DNA from: Darksidea phi
Taxonomy: Eukaryota > Ascomycota > Dothideomycetes > Pleosporales > Lentitheciaceae
Assembly: GCA_030770425.1 (NCBI GenBank)
Contig: JASJFT010000029.1
Coordinates: forward strand, 264,258 to 328,257
Direction: 5' to 3'
DNA length: 64,000 nucleotides
Positions 13,749 through 21,983 of the stretch are shown here, one piece after another. The position numbers and the translations under genes were made by a program. Within the stretch, counting starts at the first letter, position 1. Each line of letters begins with the position of its first letter. Below the pieces are notes generated by a model. The model made no database searches. It was not told the DNA's origin and saw nothing but the letters and a program-made list of their open reading frames with translations.

Positions 13749-15426
13749 TTATTTTGGAGCCAACTCCACTCCAATCCGGTCAAGAATTTCGGCGAAGTTG
13801 ACGTTGTGAGTGTCGCATTCCGTCATGACAATGTCCTTCACCCATGGACCTCTCGGTTTGAAGGCAGCCTTGAATGGGAGTGGCTTCGTTACGAGGCCAT
13901 CAGTGGCAGCCATAGGATCCACGGTAAATGGCTCCCCAGTTTCTGACAGGCCCGGCTCGATGTCGAATGCCCATAGGACTTGAGCAATGGTAATCCATAG
14001 GACATTGCGTGCGACATGCCGTCCGGGGCAGAGTCGTCTTCCATAGCCAAAACCTACTGTCGGGAGTTCTCTGAGCCCACTGGAGGTGCTCTGGGTCCCC
14101 TGCCCCGGGCTCTCAGACGGAAGCCATCTTTCGGGCTCGAATGCTTCTACGTTCGAACCGAAGACTTCTTCCTCTCGTGTCATCGACCAATGATTCGGTA
14201 TCACGACCGAGTTTGCCGGAATTTTGTATCCTTTGTAGCTGCTCTCCACTTTTGTAAAGTGGGGGACGCCAGCGGCGCCAGCAGGTCGCCATCGAAGGAG
14301 CTCCTCAACAATCGCGTCGATATACAGCAGCTTTTGTCGGTCCGCGAAGTTGGGCAGCCTTTTTCGTCCAACCACGGAGTCGAGATAATTCTGGGCTTTA
14401 GCTATGAAACCCTGATTCGACGTAATGCACGCAACCACGAACCACATCAGGGTTTCGGTGCTAGCATCTAGAGCGGCGTCCGCCATGATACCCACGTCAA
14501 GGGCAAGCTCCTCAATGGACATGTCGATTGCCTCGTTGTCCAATGTCTTTTTCATGTGCTTAGAGAAGTTCCAGCCACTAGCACCGTACCCTTGCTGCAG
14601 ATTTCCGACGTGCAGGGCGCGCTGTCGCCCCCAATGTTGCTCAGCTTCGGCTTTCCAGGGGGCTAGGAAGGCAGGGAGGTTGTTCAACACGGGGAGTGAG
14701 TCGACAAGGTACTTTCCGACCTGGGCCAGCTGATCAAACTCATGGTTGACGGAGTGGGCAGCAAGAAGCACAGGGTCTGATGCAGTTTTAAGACGGAATC
14801 CGTAGAATAGCGCGTAGATGATGCTGGCCGTGGTGCGCTCAAAGTGGCCATGGCAATTGCCTCCAGAGCCTCCGGCGTTGTTGAGAAGGTCGTACAGCAG
14901 CTGCTTTGACTCGAGTTCCTGGAATGGAAGGTATGCACTGGCTGCTCGCATGCTCAGCACGGGGCTTTCCAGCTTCTGGTGCAACCTGAAGCGCTCGTCA
15001 TATGGTCTTAGTAGCATGTGCATGCCTTTCAGGGCCAGCTCAGCGGCCACCTAGAAGGCAAATACACGTCAGCAGCCATCTTACGAGAGTTGCCCGGCGG
15101 TTAAAAGAACGTACGACAAATCGTGGGCGGTCCGAGAAAGTCGCACCCCGCTTGGCGAGGAGGTCGTGGGCTGCAGCCGACGTGGACAAGACAATGACGG
15201 GTTGGCCCAACATGTTCAGGTGCATGATGGGCCCGTACGTCTTACTCCAGGCGTGATATTGCAGCCATGGATGCGATTTTGGTGCCTGGTGGACATTTCC
15301 GATAATAGGAAGGGCAGGAGGGCCCGGGGGTAGAGGCAGAGACGATTTTGCCGCATACGCTCGGAAAAGGTACAAGGATAGAAGCGAGGCGAGGAAGACG
15401 GCAGCGTAAAGTGCTAGCGAAGCCAT
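13749..15426 (-). CDS. Cytochrome P450 monooxygenase
   Basis: Two exons, 15115-15426 and 13749-15050, are joined over a 64-nt intron (donor GTACGT, acceptor TTCTAG, phase 0) to give 537 residues, the usual length for a microsomal P450. The protein starts with an N-terminal membrane anchor (residues 4-24) followed by the proline-rich hinge LPLPPGPP. The I-helix has ALDAST at about 297-302, the K-helix ExxR is E354-L-L-R357, the meander has FEPERW, and the heme loop is FGYGRRLCPG with the proximal Cys at about residue 445. It belongs to the E-class group I type seen in fungal secondary metabolism (resembling O-methylsterigmatocystin oxidoreductase-type enzymes in general layout). It is divergently arranged with the tryptophanase-prenyltransferase gene 573 bp away, so oxidation of a prenylated indole is the natural hypothesis. 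It needs a separate P450 reductase, which is not in the window. Confidence 0.95.
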
Positions 15427-15999: not shown

Positions 16000-18885
16000 A
16001 TGAGTGTCCTGGCAGCAACGAATACTCCTCCACCACCCTCGCATAGTGCTGTGGTGGTGAGGTCTCTGCTGGCAGTGAAGCCCGAGGAGCGTGAACAAAT
16101 CCTCAAAGATGTCGAGTACAACATATTCGCCTTCCCGGCTGGACTCCTCACCTGCGATTATCTCTCGGATTCTGGCACCTCGGCCATGACAGACACGCAG
16201 TGGGCTGCCCGTAAGTTTTCCGCGACTAACACCGACAGATGCCCCAGCTCGACTTACTAGCTTCTTTCTTGTTCTTCTAAAAAGACCCTGTATTAATCTA
16301 TGACGCAGTGATGCGAGGAGACGAAAGCTACGGCCGAAATTGGGGATATTACTGCTTGCTGGACACTTTCCGAGACATTTTCGAGCGTGGCAACAACCCC
16401 CAACATGCCTTCCAAGGCATCATTACAGGCATGATTGACAGCGAATACTACCGAAACAAGCTCCTCGTATCCTCCCGAGACGGCTTCGTCAACGGGGGAC
16501 CTCACCAGCTTGAGCGTCCAAACTTCTTCATTGTGCCGCAGGGGCGCTGCGCCGAGGCCCTTCTCTTCTCTACCATGAGCAGTATGATTGCCGAAGGAGC
16601 ACCAGGAAAAGCTTCGCCTGCAATTATCAGCAATGGCTTCTTCGACACAACAGGCGCCAATGCTGCCGTCGTTGGCTTTGAGCTCCAGACCTTTACTCAA
16701 CCAGGCTTGAGCGACGCATTCCCCCAGGAGCTTGTTGGGAAAAAGAACTATTTCAAAGGTAACCTGGATGTAGCGGCGACAGAAGCCTACCTGGATCGAC
16801 ACCCAGGCCACGTTGCCATGATCTTGATGACCATCACAAATAACTGGGCCGCTGCCCAACCCGTCTCGATGGCCAACATCAGGAATACGGCAGCACTAGC
16901 CAAGCGCAAAGAGATTCCATTCTTCTTCGATGCCTGTCGATTTGCAGAGAACGCCTTCTTCATCCACGAGTATGAAGAGGGCTATGCCAACAAGTCGATT
17001 GCCGAAATCGTTCAAGAAATGTTCTCATATGCTGAAGGCTTCACTATATCTTTGAAGAAAGATGGGCTTTCAAACATGGGAGGCGTGCTATGCTTCCGAG
17101 ACAAGGGAATGTTCACTCAGAGATACGAGGGCATAGGCCTTCGTTTGAAGGAACGGCAAATTCTAGCCTATGGAAATGATTCCTACGGTGGCAGTAAGTC
17201 TTCTTTCTTCAATTGAAGCGATTATTTCTCTCTGAAAAAGAATGTTTCTGCCATTTCAGGACGTTGATAACTAATTATAATTATCAGTGAGTGGCCGCGA
17301 TCTCATGACAGCTGTAATGGGTCTCTACGAGGTCACAAAAGAGACCTATCTCCGTAACCGCATCGGACAGGTTCAATATTTCGCTCAAAAACTCCAGTCC
17401 AACGGGCTATCCGTTATCCTGCCCCCAGGAGGGCACGCTGTCTATCTCGAAATGGAGGAATTCTTCTTTGGCTGCGACAGGAAGCCGGATGACTTCGCCT
17501 CAGTTGGTTTCACCATCGAGCTGATCAAAGACTTCGGCATCCGCGCTGCAGAAGCGGGCCCTTTCGGGTGGGAGTGGGACAAGAAGTCGCCAGAGGAGCG
17601 CAAAAAGATTCCAAACCTTGTCCGATTTGCCGTCCCACGCCATGTTCAATCCGAAGAACATATCAACTACACAGTTGCGGCCATTAAATTGCTGCACAGC
17701 AGAAGGCACACGATTCCAAATGTGGAAATAGCAAGGGGAAAGGACATGAGACTCCGGCACTTTTCAAGTGGCCTGAGACCCATCCCAGTGACCCAAAGCA
17801 TCTCCGGTAGCTACATAGACGAGGCTACCAAGCAATTGTCACGTCTTTCCCAGGCCATCAATCTGGATCCGGCGGTGAAAGAACAGCTAATCAAGGCTTT
17901 GACGCTATCAGGGGGCGAATTTGGTCAAAGGCCAGTACCCAAACAGCTCGATCCCTCAGCATGGATCTCGAACGTCAGCAACGATAATGCATTCTACGAG
18001 TACTCCGTGGCACTGGACCAGAAGACCGGAGATGCCGAACTCCGCTTTCTCATAGAAGCTCAAGCAGACGGCAACAGGCTGACCAAAATGCAAGAGAGCG
18101 CAGTCCGCCTAAACCATGAGATCGCAAAGAACTACAGCTCAACCGTATCACTCGACCGTATGAATGATATCCAAGACCTCTTCCTGCCTGCCCAACCTGA
18201 AGGCATGTTTGCCGCATGGCACAGCTGTGCCGCCACCAAAGCAGGACCGGAATGGAAGATCTACCTCAACCCCTGCGCAACGGGCCCGCAGCAAGCCTCC
18301 TCAGTAGCCCGCGAGGCATTCGAGCGTCTCGGCCTAGCCAGTGCATGGCAGCTCCTGGCCAGCATCATGACACCCGACGACCCCGTGCTCTACTTCTCCC
18401 TCGACCTATCCCCGCACCACGTCCACTCTCGCATCAAAATCTACATCGCACATCCAAACGCCACCGCCTCAACTGTTGCCCAAAAGCACACCCAGATCTG
18501 CCCCAACGCCTGCGCTTACTCCATCCAACAATTCTGCGCCTCCATGGCCGGCGGCTCACTGGGCCCGTACACGGCAAAGCCGCTGTTATCCTGCTTCGCC
18601 TTCACGACCGAGGCGCCTGATCACCCGGTCAGCACTGTGCATTTCCCCGTCGTGGCGTACGCGGATAATGATGCGGAGGTCCAACGCCGCATGCAGCATT
18701 ACATCAGTGTGGCGAGTCTCCCGCCGGCTTATCAACAGCGTTATGCGAAGATTATAAGCGCGGTCCAGCGGAGGCCGCTTGACAAGGGGCGCGGGATACA
18801 CGCTTGGGTTAGCTTGAAGCAGAACGGGAAGGGGAAGAGATCAAATACTTTTTATCTGTCGCCGGAATTGTTCGGGCCGTTGTGA
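16000..18885 (+). CDS. Fused tryptophan indole-lyase and indole prenyltransferase (DMATS/ABBA type)
   Basis: Three exons (16000-16210, 16309-17193, 17288-18885) give one 897-residue protein. Both introns have GTAAGT donors and CAG acceptors, and both restore conserved motifs (DTQWAALMRGDE; YGGMSGRDL). Residues 1 to about 530 are a PLP-dependent beta-eliminating lyase: SDSGTSAMTD near the N-terminus, FDACRFAENA with Asp278 and Arg281, Schiff-base Lys321 in SLKKDG, and Arg478 in VRFAVPR. Specificity residues point to tryptophanase rather than tyrosine phenol-lyase: Asp183 in FFDTT (E. coli TnaA Asp137; Thr in TPL), His523 in LRHF (TnaA His463; Phe in TPL), and Ala455 where TPL has Arg381 (numbering from memory). 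Relative to bacterial enzymes there is an insertion of about 40 residues before the QGR loop, and HQGR is PQGR. Residues from about 540 to 897 are a metal-free aromatic prenyltransferase: Glu603 in EYSVAL (indole N-H contact), and basic/Tyr shield motifs WKIYLNP (Lys689), RIKIYIAHP and TFYLSP (Tyr888). The style is that of bacterial indole prenyltransferases. Predicted flow: L-Trp to indole, pyruvate and ammonia, then indole plus DMAPP to a dimethylallylindole. Confidence 0.92.
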
Positions 18886-19722
18886 GGGAAGTTGGCATTC
18901 TCCACTCGGAGGTTCTGCGGCGAAGTTGGGTCTTGGAAGGTCTAGGGAGGGTTGGATAGGCTTCGGTCTGGCTGGAGTCTTAGAAACACAATAGAAACCC
19001 TTACCAACATATATATTATGGGGCAAAAGGGCTCACAATATAGTGGTAGCTACTAGAATACACGAAATACAAAAGGGGTAGAACGAACCCAGCTTTGGCC
19101 GTATATCTAGGTTAAGTTTCTTCGGTATAAACCCCTATGCGAATATGCTACAAAATAACCATGAGCTATTAATAGAGATAAGATAATAAATCCATCTCTT
19201 CTATAAAACAGGATAAATTCTATTATTCCTAGAAGAAAAGAAAGATAATTTAGAGATAGATAAAAATTAATATTTAGACTAAGCTAATTAGGTAAATAAC
19301 TCTATTCTTACTTCCATAATTAAGTAGTATATAGAATCATTGTTGTCTTTGCCTCCAAGTCTTCTGCGCTGCCAATGATCGGCGACAATCCAGGTTCTTC
19401 GAATATTGTGCGTTTAGTGCACGGTTTGTTTCTTCTAGGTATTGAGATTTACGCCAAAGAACGAACAGGTGGTGTTTACTGTTCGAATGACGACGAACAA
19501 CGGAGCATAGACGCAATATGGCGGAAAGATTGTGGAATGCATTTTTAAGATGTAGCGAGCTGTTGAGAAGCGTGTAGGGAAGAGACTTCGTTTAATGTGT
19601 CTTGGGACGAGGAAGACACTAGCCGGAAAGGTGCTAGCTCCTCATGACGTATAGTCTAGGAAACAGTCGATTGAGTGCTGCATCGATCGAGAATACCTTT
19701 TCCATCAACAGCTACCACCGCA
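18886..19722. other. Downstream spacer with AT-rich relic
   Basis: No gene is seen. The 3' flank of the fusion gene runs into a strongly AT-rich block (see 19090-19340). From 19340 the composition returns to normal, and the end should contain the promoter of the small membrane-protein frame at 19723. Confidence 0.5.
19090..19340. repeat. AT-rich block, possibly RIP-mutated relic
   Basis: About 250 bp, strongly AT-rich and dense in TA and AA/TT steps, in contrast to the balanced sequence on both sides. No frame is open. This look is typical of repeats degraded by repeat-induced point mutation in Pezizomycotina. No inverted repeats or retroelement motif can be read, so the source element is unknown. 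Confidence 0.45.
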
Positions 19723-20262: not shown

Positions 20263-20979
20263 CTATTCCTCCACTTTTCCCAGCATCAAATCGACAGCCT
20301 GCCTCCCCTCTGTGCTATATCCCTCGACAAACCGATCCCCGAATCCACTCACCCAACTTAAGTAAGTAACCTCGGGTTTCTCCCTGCAGAAGCCACACAT
20401 GAGCTCTTTGATATGCCCCTTCAAACCCCTCCTCGGGAACTCCTCTGCAATCTTATTCAGCTCATCTTGGTCGACCTGCACGAGTGCCTCGCCAATAGCC
20501 TGTTTCCCGTACTCAGCGCCAAACAGTTCAACCGCAATGCCCGCATTTGTAAGTGCAACTTCTGGCTCCTTGTGTGCAGCAACGATTGGGTAGGTGTGCA
20601 GCGCTATGCTGTCCCACACTAGCTGGATACGGTGTTTGTCCCAATCCGCTGCATGACCCTCGCGGAGGATGAAGTCTCGTGCGGCGTTTGCGCCGTCGAC
20701 TTCGAAAATCTTATCTTGCGAGCGGAACTCAGGGCTATGACTCCAACCAAGATCATGAAGGATTGTTGCAACGGAGAATGCTTCGAGATCGATGGCTTCA
20801 CGCTGGGCTGGTGGGAGACGCGAGATGATGAGCGTTCCGACAACCCATGATCGTGCGACGTGCCTATAGCCGATAGGATCCATGGAGTTCTCAGCAAGCT
20901 TAAGGGCCTTGTTGACGAGAGAAGTAGAGAGCACGGTGACGCCGGCTACAGTGCGCGTTGGAAGCTGTTGAGTGGACAT
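20263..20979 (-). CDS. HD-domain protein (metal-dependent hydrolase family)
   Basis: A single-exon frame of 238 residues from the ATG at 20979. HD-domain features are present in order: the first metal-binding His in YRHVARSW (residue about 39), the HD dipeptide in TILHDLGWSH (about residues 73-75), and further His residues in the IALHTYP region (about 125), with an Asp further on. Fungal members of this type are related to cyanamide hydratase-like and uncharacterised HD proteins; the substrate is unknown. It lies about 2.1 kb from the end of the tryptophanase-prenyltransferase gene but is separated from it by an AT-rich block and a broken gene, so membership in the same cluster is doubtful. 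Confidence 0.85.
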   Translation of the reverse strand: MSTQQLPTRTVAGVTVLSTSLVNKALKLAENSMDPIGYRHVARSWVVGTLIISRLPPAQREAIDLEAFSVATILHDLGWSHSPEFRSQDKIFEVDGANAARDFILREGHAADWDKHRIQLVWDSIALHTYPIVAAHKEPEVALTNAGIAVELFGAEYGKQAIGEALVQVDQDELNKIAEEFPRRGLKGHIKELMCGFCREKPEVTYLSWVSGFGDRFVEGYSTEGRQAVDLMLGKVEE

Positions 20980-21983
20980 TGTAATGATCGTTTCGCGACG
21001 GATGTGATGAGAAGACTTTGTTGTAGAAACTGCGAGTTGTAGTTTACTGTTGCTTGCATAATATCCATCGCGACATCTTTATACCACAGATCTTTCATTT
21101 CAGCGGAAGTCGTCCGCTCCATTCCCTTATGATCACTATTCAATCTTCTCGACGCCGCCTTTCGTAGAGTGCCTGAATGCTTCAACACCACCCTCGCAAC
21201 CAATCATTGGCAGAGAGGCTACTGATACTTACTGATTCTGAGGGGTAGATCGGCTCGGAGACCATATTACAGCCGCTCCGAGCGGCGGTCGAACTTCCGA
21301 TGCTGACAGGCCGACACGGAACGCGCCGTTTCAGGACGGAATGTCGCCGAATGATGGCTGACTTCTTTCTCCAGACTCGTTACGTCTGTCTCTGACCAGC
21401 AAAATTTTTGGCGGAACACTTCGACCAATCATGCCCCGCCGTTCCATCTAACCGAATATGTTGTGGAACTCAACAGCAACATATATCTCTCGCATCATTC
21501 GCAGCTCTCCTTTCCTCCAGCATTGTCGCAAGTTATGGCCTGATTCAGTGCTCAGCTCCCCTGGCCCGGAACTGGCGGTCTGCAAGGAGCAGCCAATGGG
21601 GTCCTTGCGGCAGCGTTTCCATAAGCTTAAGAGTTGCACAGCGTGCGGAGATGGGGATGGAGAGCCGATAAGAAAAGCGCGTCGGTTGTGGAAGAAAACG
21701 CTCACTCTTTCTACTTCCTTTCCTTCTCTCTCTGTCTTCCCCCGAACTTTCTGTCGCAATTACACTATTTGAGAGTCCGGCATTTTTTGAAATATATAAG
21801 AGTGTGATCACGTGACTGGCACATTCACATACGTCCGAGCTTCGGCAACCGAAACAATCAGGATCCAACAATCCCGGATCAGACGAGCTCAACATAAAAA
21901 GCGGTGTCAACATAAATCCACAAGGTCATTTTCATCACATCCTTTTGAATTCCTTGGAACTCATCCATTTATAAACGATTGCA
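20980..21983. other. Intergenic region between divergent genes
   Basis: About 1 kb between the start of the HD-domain gene and the small gene at 21984; it must hold both promoters. A TATA-like TATATAAG is at about 21793-21800. Overlapping open frames on both strands at 21400-21900 show no protein signature. Confidence 0.4.

Follow-up and report, generated by a model that had tools for sequence, protein, structure and literature searches.

A gene that fuses a tryptophanase-type lyase to a DMATS-type prenyltransferase lies on a 64,000-nucleotide stretch of the genome of the ascomycete Darksidea phi (GenBank assembly GCA_030770425.1, contig JASJFT010000029.1, positions 264,258 to 328,257), referred to here as the window. 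The gene runs on the forward strand from an ATG at 16000 to a stop codon at 18883 to 18885, and splicing of its three exons gives a product of 897 residues (Table 1). Sequence comparison confirms the two-domain fusion gene as real, far beyond chance, because its top homologue shares the architecture and is 81% identical over the full length. Alternative GT/AG pairs also keep the frame open, in at least 18 combinations. The introns chosen restore the family blocks QWAA/LMRGDE and NDSYGG/MSGRDL at joins 1 and 2, respectively, which are the most frequent patterns in relatives among the six commonest listed per join. The lyase-prenyltransferase junction (approximately 17782 to 17815) falls within an uninterrupted 534-codon frame (17281 to 18885), and no choice of splice sites creates it because it sits inside exon 3. 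A split gene or a splice artefact was ruled out, since the junction lies in one unbroken exon frame and is shared by full-length relatives.

Table 1. Features of the fusion gene and of its upstream neighbour in the window (PLP, pyridoxal phosphate; aa, amino acids)
Feature	Position	Strand	Basis or remark
Whole fusion gene	16000..18885	+	Spliced frame, 897 aa; full-length homologues
Exon 1, N terminus of lyase	16000..16210	+	Spliced frame; donor GTAAGT at 16211
Intron 1	16211..16308	+	GT..AG; removal restores QWAALMRGDESY, common among relatives
Exon 2, lyase core	16309..17193	+	PLP lysine K321 at codon 17058-17060
Intron 2	17194..17287	+	GTAAGT..TATCAG; removal restores NDSYGGMSGRDL
Exon 3, lyase C terminus, junction and entire prenyltransferase half	17288..18885	+	Single open frame
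Lyase half, residues 1-531, tryptophanase type, PF01212	16000..17784 (introns included)	+	Pfam, NCBIfam and PDB matches
Short linker, residues 532-541	17785..17814	+	Gap between tryptophanase and DMATS PDB matches
Prenyltransferase half, residues 542-897, PF11991, DMATS type	17815..18882	+	Pfam and PDB matches, homologue model
573-bp region between P450 and fusion start codons	15427..15999		Gene positions
Cytochrome P450 gene, 537 aa, exons 15426-15115 and 15050-13749	13749..15426	-	PF00067, splice model

The lyase half matched PF01212 at residues 53 to 495 with 176.6 bits (cut-off, 27) and passed the tryptophanase subfamily model NF009709 of NCBIfam with 472.5 bits against a cut-off of 285. 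The equivalog models for tryptophanase (TIGR02617, 271.9 versus 825.8 bits; NF053783, 311.0 versus 750) and for tyrosine phenol-lyase (TIGR02618, 266.6 versus 720.7) scored below their cut-offs. The tryptophanase match in the PDB spans residues 10 to 531, and the nearest solved lyase is 8sl7 from Butyricicoccus, with 46% identity. Residues Y78, D183, N249, D278, R281, K321, R478, and H523 are the same as the aligned residues of Proteus vulgaris tryptophanase. K321 is the PLP lysine, R478 the substrate-carboxylate arginine, and Y78 the active-site tyrosine, with D183 and H523 of tryptophanase type. Conservation was counted over 74 aligned rows, the window protein and 73 homologues, at sites chosen from the motifs of the former. 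K321, R478, N249, D278, and R281 are kept in all rows, D183 in 73 (one gap), and Y78 in 66 (eight gaps). H523 is present in 67 rows, being replaced by Val in five Colletotrichum rows and one metagenome row and by Leu in one other metagenome row.

The prenyltransferase half matched PF11991 (Trp_DMAT) at residues 576 to 839 with 42.0 bits (cut-off, 25), and the DMATS subfamily model TIGR03429 remained below its cut-off (103.7 versus 163.85 bits). PDB matches to DMATS enzymes span residues 542 to 894. The closest solved prenyltransferases by sequence are 6zrx/6zry, IptA (7w8u), and PriB, whose matches end at residue 893 or 894. The half has the ABBA fold, a ten-strand barrel, judged by the ten strands in the structure model of P0001, the 81%-identical homologue. 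E603, R618, K689, Y691, R747, K749, and Y751 are the same as the aligned active-site residues of the 6-DMATS 6zrx. They are kept in 71, 67, 71, 70, 61, 64, and 71 of the 74 rows, respectively. Weighing against a uniform function, five of the 73 homologues (P0059, P0032, P0040, P0030, and P0048) depart at 5 or more of 16 prenyltransferase sites. In some Xylaria and Astrocystis fusions (P0030, P0032, P0040, and P0059), the lyase sites are intact and 8 to 11 of the 16 prenyltransferase sites are altered, which suggests that these prenyltransferase halves have decayed or been repurposed. The nearest solved relatives of the prenyltransferase half are tryptophan prenyltransferases, several of them with bound tryptophan in the structure, and its closest relatives by sequence are the l-tryptophan 5-/6-prenyltransferases of bacteria.

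The homologue search scored 7994 candidates and returned 872 proteins at an E value of ≤0.001, the best 120 of which were examined. Both Pfam domains were present in 72 of these 120 (counted by eye), mostly from Ascomycota. Among the matches listed, the sources of the fusion include Lentithecium, Corynespora, Xylaria, Hypoxylon, Podospora, Colletotrichum, Metarhizium, and Mycena pura, and two matches (P0050 and P0081), one with both domains, come from the liverwort Riccia sorocarpa. The liverwort thus encodes one complete fusion as well as another copy of the lyase. The two lie on contigs of 31.9 and 52.3 Mb, a length that makes contamination an unlikely origin of P0050 and P0081. The conserved His position and the start of the prenyltransferase are spaced by 17 residues in 45 of the 74 rows (range, 10 to 32). 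The homologues are usually named tryptophanase, beta-eliminating lyase, pyridoxal phosphate-dependent transferase, or hypothetical protein in the databases. Some shorter fungal lyase matches retain pieces of the prenyltransferase (e.g., P0097, P0104, and P0089), and part of the shorter fungal lyases may therefore be fusions whose gene models are fragmentary. An earlier sequence-only reading had proposed a single polypeptide of 897 residues with two introns and almost no linker, joining two complete domains with their catalytic residues. The spliced frame and the limits of the PDB matches bear out the former, and the Pfam and PDB matches, together with identity to the active-site residues of solved relatives, bear out the latter. 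A termination near 17780, which would have pointed to two genes, was looked for in the sequence and none was found, the frame being open across the junction. The database search that the same reading called for found the architecture in dozens of proteins, so the fusion is not confined to the Darksidea phi genome.

Phylogenetic trees of the prenyltransferase (71 rows) and the lyase (48 rows) were midpoint rooted, and both carried long-branch warnings. In the prenyltransferase tree, 37 rows form one group (support, 98/96) that comprises the window protein, 27 sampled fusions including that of the liverwort, eight lyase-less proteins, and one metagenome fragment. This group, together with 30 bacterial or bacterial-like rows, is split from the four classical DMATS of the Darksidea phi genome (100/100). 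Lyase-less prenyltransferases of Penicillium, Aspergillus, and Daldinia (P0243, P0249, P0253, and P0280 among them) are nested among the fusions, with good support at two places (P0291 and the set of P0248, Penicillium, and Aspergillus) and weaker support at one (P0243). Because prenyltransferase-only proteins nest among fusions, the tree suggests that the lyase was repeatedly lost or split off. The trees fit a single ancestral fusion with a prenyltransferase half of bacterial type, followed by loss or splitting off of the lyase. The Riccia row falls within the fungal group (98/93), and for this reason a fungus-to-plant transfer likely gave rise to the liverwort fusion. In the lyase tree, the lyases of fungi, the liverwort, and metagenomes (36 rows) cluster together (99/95) and join the Butyricicoccus enzyme (100/100), apart from 11 bacterial lyases encoded next to a prenyltransferase. 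That the whole fusion arose from a bacterial prenyltransferase-lyase operon is accordingly unsupported for the lyase half, given its grouping with the Butyricicoccus tryptophanase; the deep placement of this half is unsure owing to long branches.

Bacterial loci were collected by a pattern-limited scan of a prokaryote collection with one genome per species (84,980 species), in which 80 matched stretches resolved into 43 prenyltransferase loci. A tryptophanase frame adjoins the prenyltransferase in 15 of the 43. Fourteen of these pairs, L042 included, have the prenyltransferase before the lyase, and the pair of Nostoc (L017, same genome as L060) is the one in the fungal order, with the lyase before the prenyltransferase. 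In the taxonomic family of Micromonospora sp. HM5-17, the prenyltransferase occurs in 52 of 300 genomes, and the lyase adjoins it in 27 of 30 loci examined, the three misses being uninformative on absence as the loci are short. In the order to which the Nostoc genome belongs, the prenyltransferase occurs in 7 of 291 genomes, and the lyase was seen at only one of the seven loci, that of Nostoc. Unfused bacterial pairs share a reading frame in 9 of 41 cases (Nostoc genome counted twice), which is not above the one third expected by chance. In Micromonospora sp. HM5-17 (L028:5791-8547, same as L073), a single open frame of 919 codons encodes a prenyltransferase followed by a tryptophanase, apparently an independent fusion in reverse order, or possibly a sequencing error at a stop codon. 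Three metagenomic DMATS proteins of 626 to 648 residues (P0309, P0311, and P0320) additionally bear a PF14518 domain. Prenyltransferase frames of 638 to 650 codons in genomes around Nostoc (L059 and L061 to L065) resemble them in length and may share this PF14518 and DMATS architecture.

A cytochrome P450 gene is divergent from the fusion gene, and the 573 bp between their start codons presumably form a two-way promoter. With contigs matched by their lengths and the best 120 matches considered for each protein, 14 of the 120 contigs with a fusion match also bear a listed P450 homologue (13 fungi and one metagenome). The other 106 contigs have no P450 among the best 120 (one contig per cluster), an absence that is uninformative. 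P450 relatives among the best 120 were also found on 3 of 58 further contigs from the prenyltransferase search. The three best P450 matches (75 to 88% identity) are all on fusion-bearing contigs. Across the 14 shared contigs the identities lie between 52 and 88%; three are at 52 to 54%, values that many P450s elsewhere show as well. The shared contigs include short ones of 28.8, 57, 60, 107, and 122 kb, and the fusion and P450 genes of Monosporascus sp. mg162 have locus tags two apart. Two Aspergillus contigs with prenyltransferase-only proteins also bear a P450 relative (55% identity). Near bacterial prenyltransferases, a fungal-type P450 gave one distant match (L022, E value of 2e-8) in the 43 loci, a weak test given how distant bacterial P450s are from the query. 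An AT-rich block (19000 to 19499) with 35% GC, versus 57.6% and 53.6% in the adjacent 500-base windows, lies close behind the 3' end of the fusion gene. Farther downstream, a reverse-strand open frame (20263 to 21078) matches an HD domain weakly, at 20.3 bits against a cut-off of 22. No link to the pathway was made for the neighbours other than the P450, among them the HD-domain-like gene and genes with MFS and fungal rhodopsin domains.

Computation shows the domains, the fold, the conservation of residues, and the distribution; we infer the substrate, order of steps, ring position, role of the P450, and any channelling. With modest confidence, the protein is considered a bifunctional enzyme that converts l-tryptophan and dimethylallyl diphosphate (DMAPP) to a ring-prenylated indole, pyruvate, and ammonia. 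The C-terminal DMATS half would act first, forming dimethylallyl-tryptophan, and the N-terminal PLP lyase would then release dimethylallylindole, pyruvate, and ammonia by beta-elimination. The divergent P450 would probably oxidize the prenylindole last. Judged from the nearest prenyltransferase relatives by sequence, the product is most likely 6-dimethylallylindole; weighing against C-6, a 5-DMATS is about as close in fold to this half as the C-6 relatives are. The prenyltransferase-first order is likelier because the nearest solved relatives are tryptophan prenyltransferases and because IptA, which belongs to a bacterial cluster with a lyase, is reported in PMC3617294 (Ozaki et al. 2013) to prenylate tryptophan, at C-6. 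The opposite order had been put forward in the sequence-only reading, with indole freed from tryptophan by the lyase and prenylated by the fused partner before it escapes. The tryptophanase-type residues of the lyase agree with that order, and the linker, which is short and in most rows (45 of 74) of one length, would suit the passing of a volatile intermediate. However, the same nearest relatives, several of them solved with bound tryptophan, and the reported activity of IptA favour tryptophan over indole as the prenyl acceptor, leaving this order less well supported and rather unlikely.

In all or some members of the family, the substrate might instead be another aromatic amino acid or an indole derivative; tyrosine, for instance, would yield a prenylphenol. 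The TIGR02617 and TIGR02618 scores (271.9 and 266.6 bits), both sub-cut-off, and the 7 of 74 rows in which H523 gives way to Val or Leu leave room for it, whereas D183 and H523 of the window protein are tryptophanase-like and its nearest prenyltransferase relatives are tryptophan enzymes, which makes such a substrate improbable. That one half is dead or minor, the protein being mainly a lyase or mainly a prenyltransferase, is less probable still. Such an imbalance would accord with the five homologues that depart at prenyltransferase sites and with the lyase-less Penicillium/Aspergillus and Daldinia proteins inside the fusion clade, but most homologues retain both sets of sites, and at the aligned active-site positions the window protein agrees with solved lyases and with solved prenyltransferases. 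More tentatively, as a possible but doubtful extension, the fusions may represent an ancient bifunctional family that combines a long-form bacterial-type tryptophanase with a bacterial-type tryptophan prenyltransferase and that spread through Ascomycota, to Mycena and a liverwort. Together with the P450, it would make up an undescribed pathway of two genes dedicated to prenylindoles, with prenyltryptophan passing from one fused active site to the other.

No description of a fused eukaryotic form was found among the papers listed in the literature searched, which covered titles and the starts of abstracts, with few subscription papers and no preprints; within this coverage, the earlier reading, which knew of no described fungal fusion, is supported. 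A mention of fungal tryptophanase in PMC11355416 is an unrelated table entry. The fusion is thus a real and widespread, apparently uncharacterised fused form of a known bacterial two-enzyme pathway: both activities and their pairing in bacteria were known already, and the fused eukaryotic form appears undescribed in the papers searched. Many fungi with proteins under generic lyase or hypothetical names would, on this prediction, have a one-enzyme route to prenylindoles. The fusion also points to a bacterial-type pathway moving into fungi and onward into a liverwort. Liverworts make prenylindoles. The family is a ready test case for whether a PLP lyase-prenyltransferase fusion couples two steps, and it offers a candidate one-pot biocatalyst and a small gene set for expression.

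Several known systems resemble parts of the fusion. The solved chain of Butyricicoccus sp. tryptophanase (8sl7) is a tryptophanase alone, without a prenyltransferase domain, unlike the fusion. PriB, IptA, the Streptomyces coelicolor 5-DMATS, the M. olivasterospora 6-DMATS, and CymD are bacterial stand-alone enzymes with 24 to 30% identity to the prenyltransferase half. The classical fungal DMATS (FgaPT2, DMATS1, and other copies in the Darksidea phi genome) share its fold and PF11991 but have lower Z scores (34.7 to 36.5) and 14 to 17% identity, and the four copies of this genome form a clade apart from it. A parallel in activities is the Type A indole prenyltransferase cluster of actinomycetes, which includes a tryptophanase according to PMC3617294. 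As the sequence-only reading had supposed, this source and the prokaryote loci relate the fusion to actinomycete pairs of tryptophanase and prenyltransferase genes. In the same source, 6-prenylindole is a likely intermediate of 6-dimethylallylindole-3-carbaldehyde, and a reference title terms it an antifungal metabolite of Streptomyces. The published Type A clusters also carry a conservon cassette, to which the P450 remark there refers; it is not used as support here. Their two activities are adjacent, and their DMATS is homologous to the prenyltransferase half. However, their genes are separate, with the prenyltransferase first and the lyase second in the loci examined save the fused L028, whereas the window has one fused gene, and the 11 prenyltransferase-adjacent bacterial lyases have 31 to 34% identity to the fusion lyase and belong to a different tree group. 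The fused gene may work like a Type A cluster, yet it is not one.
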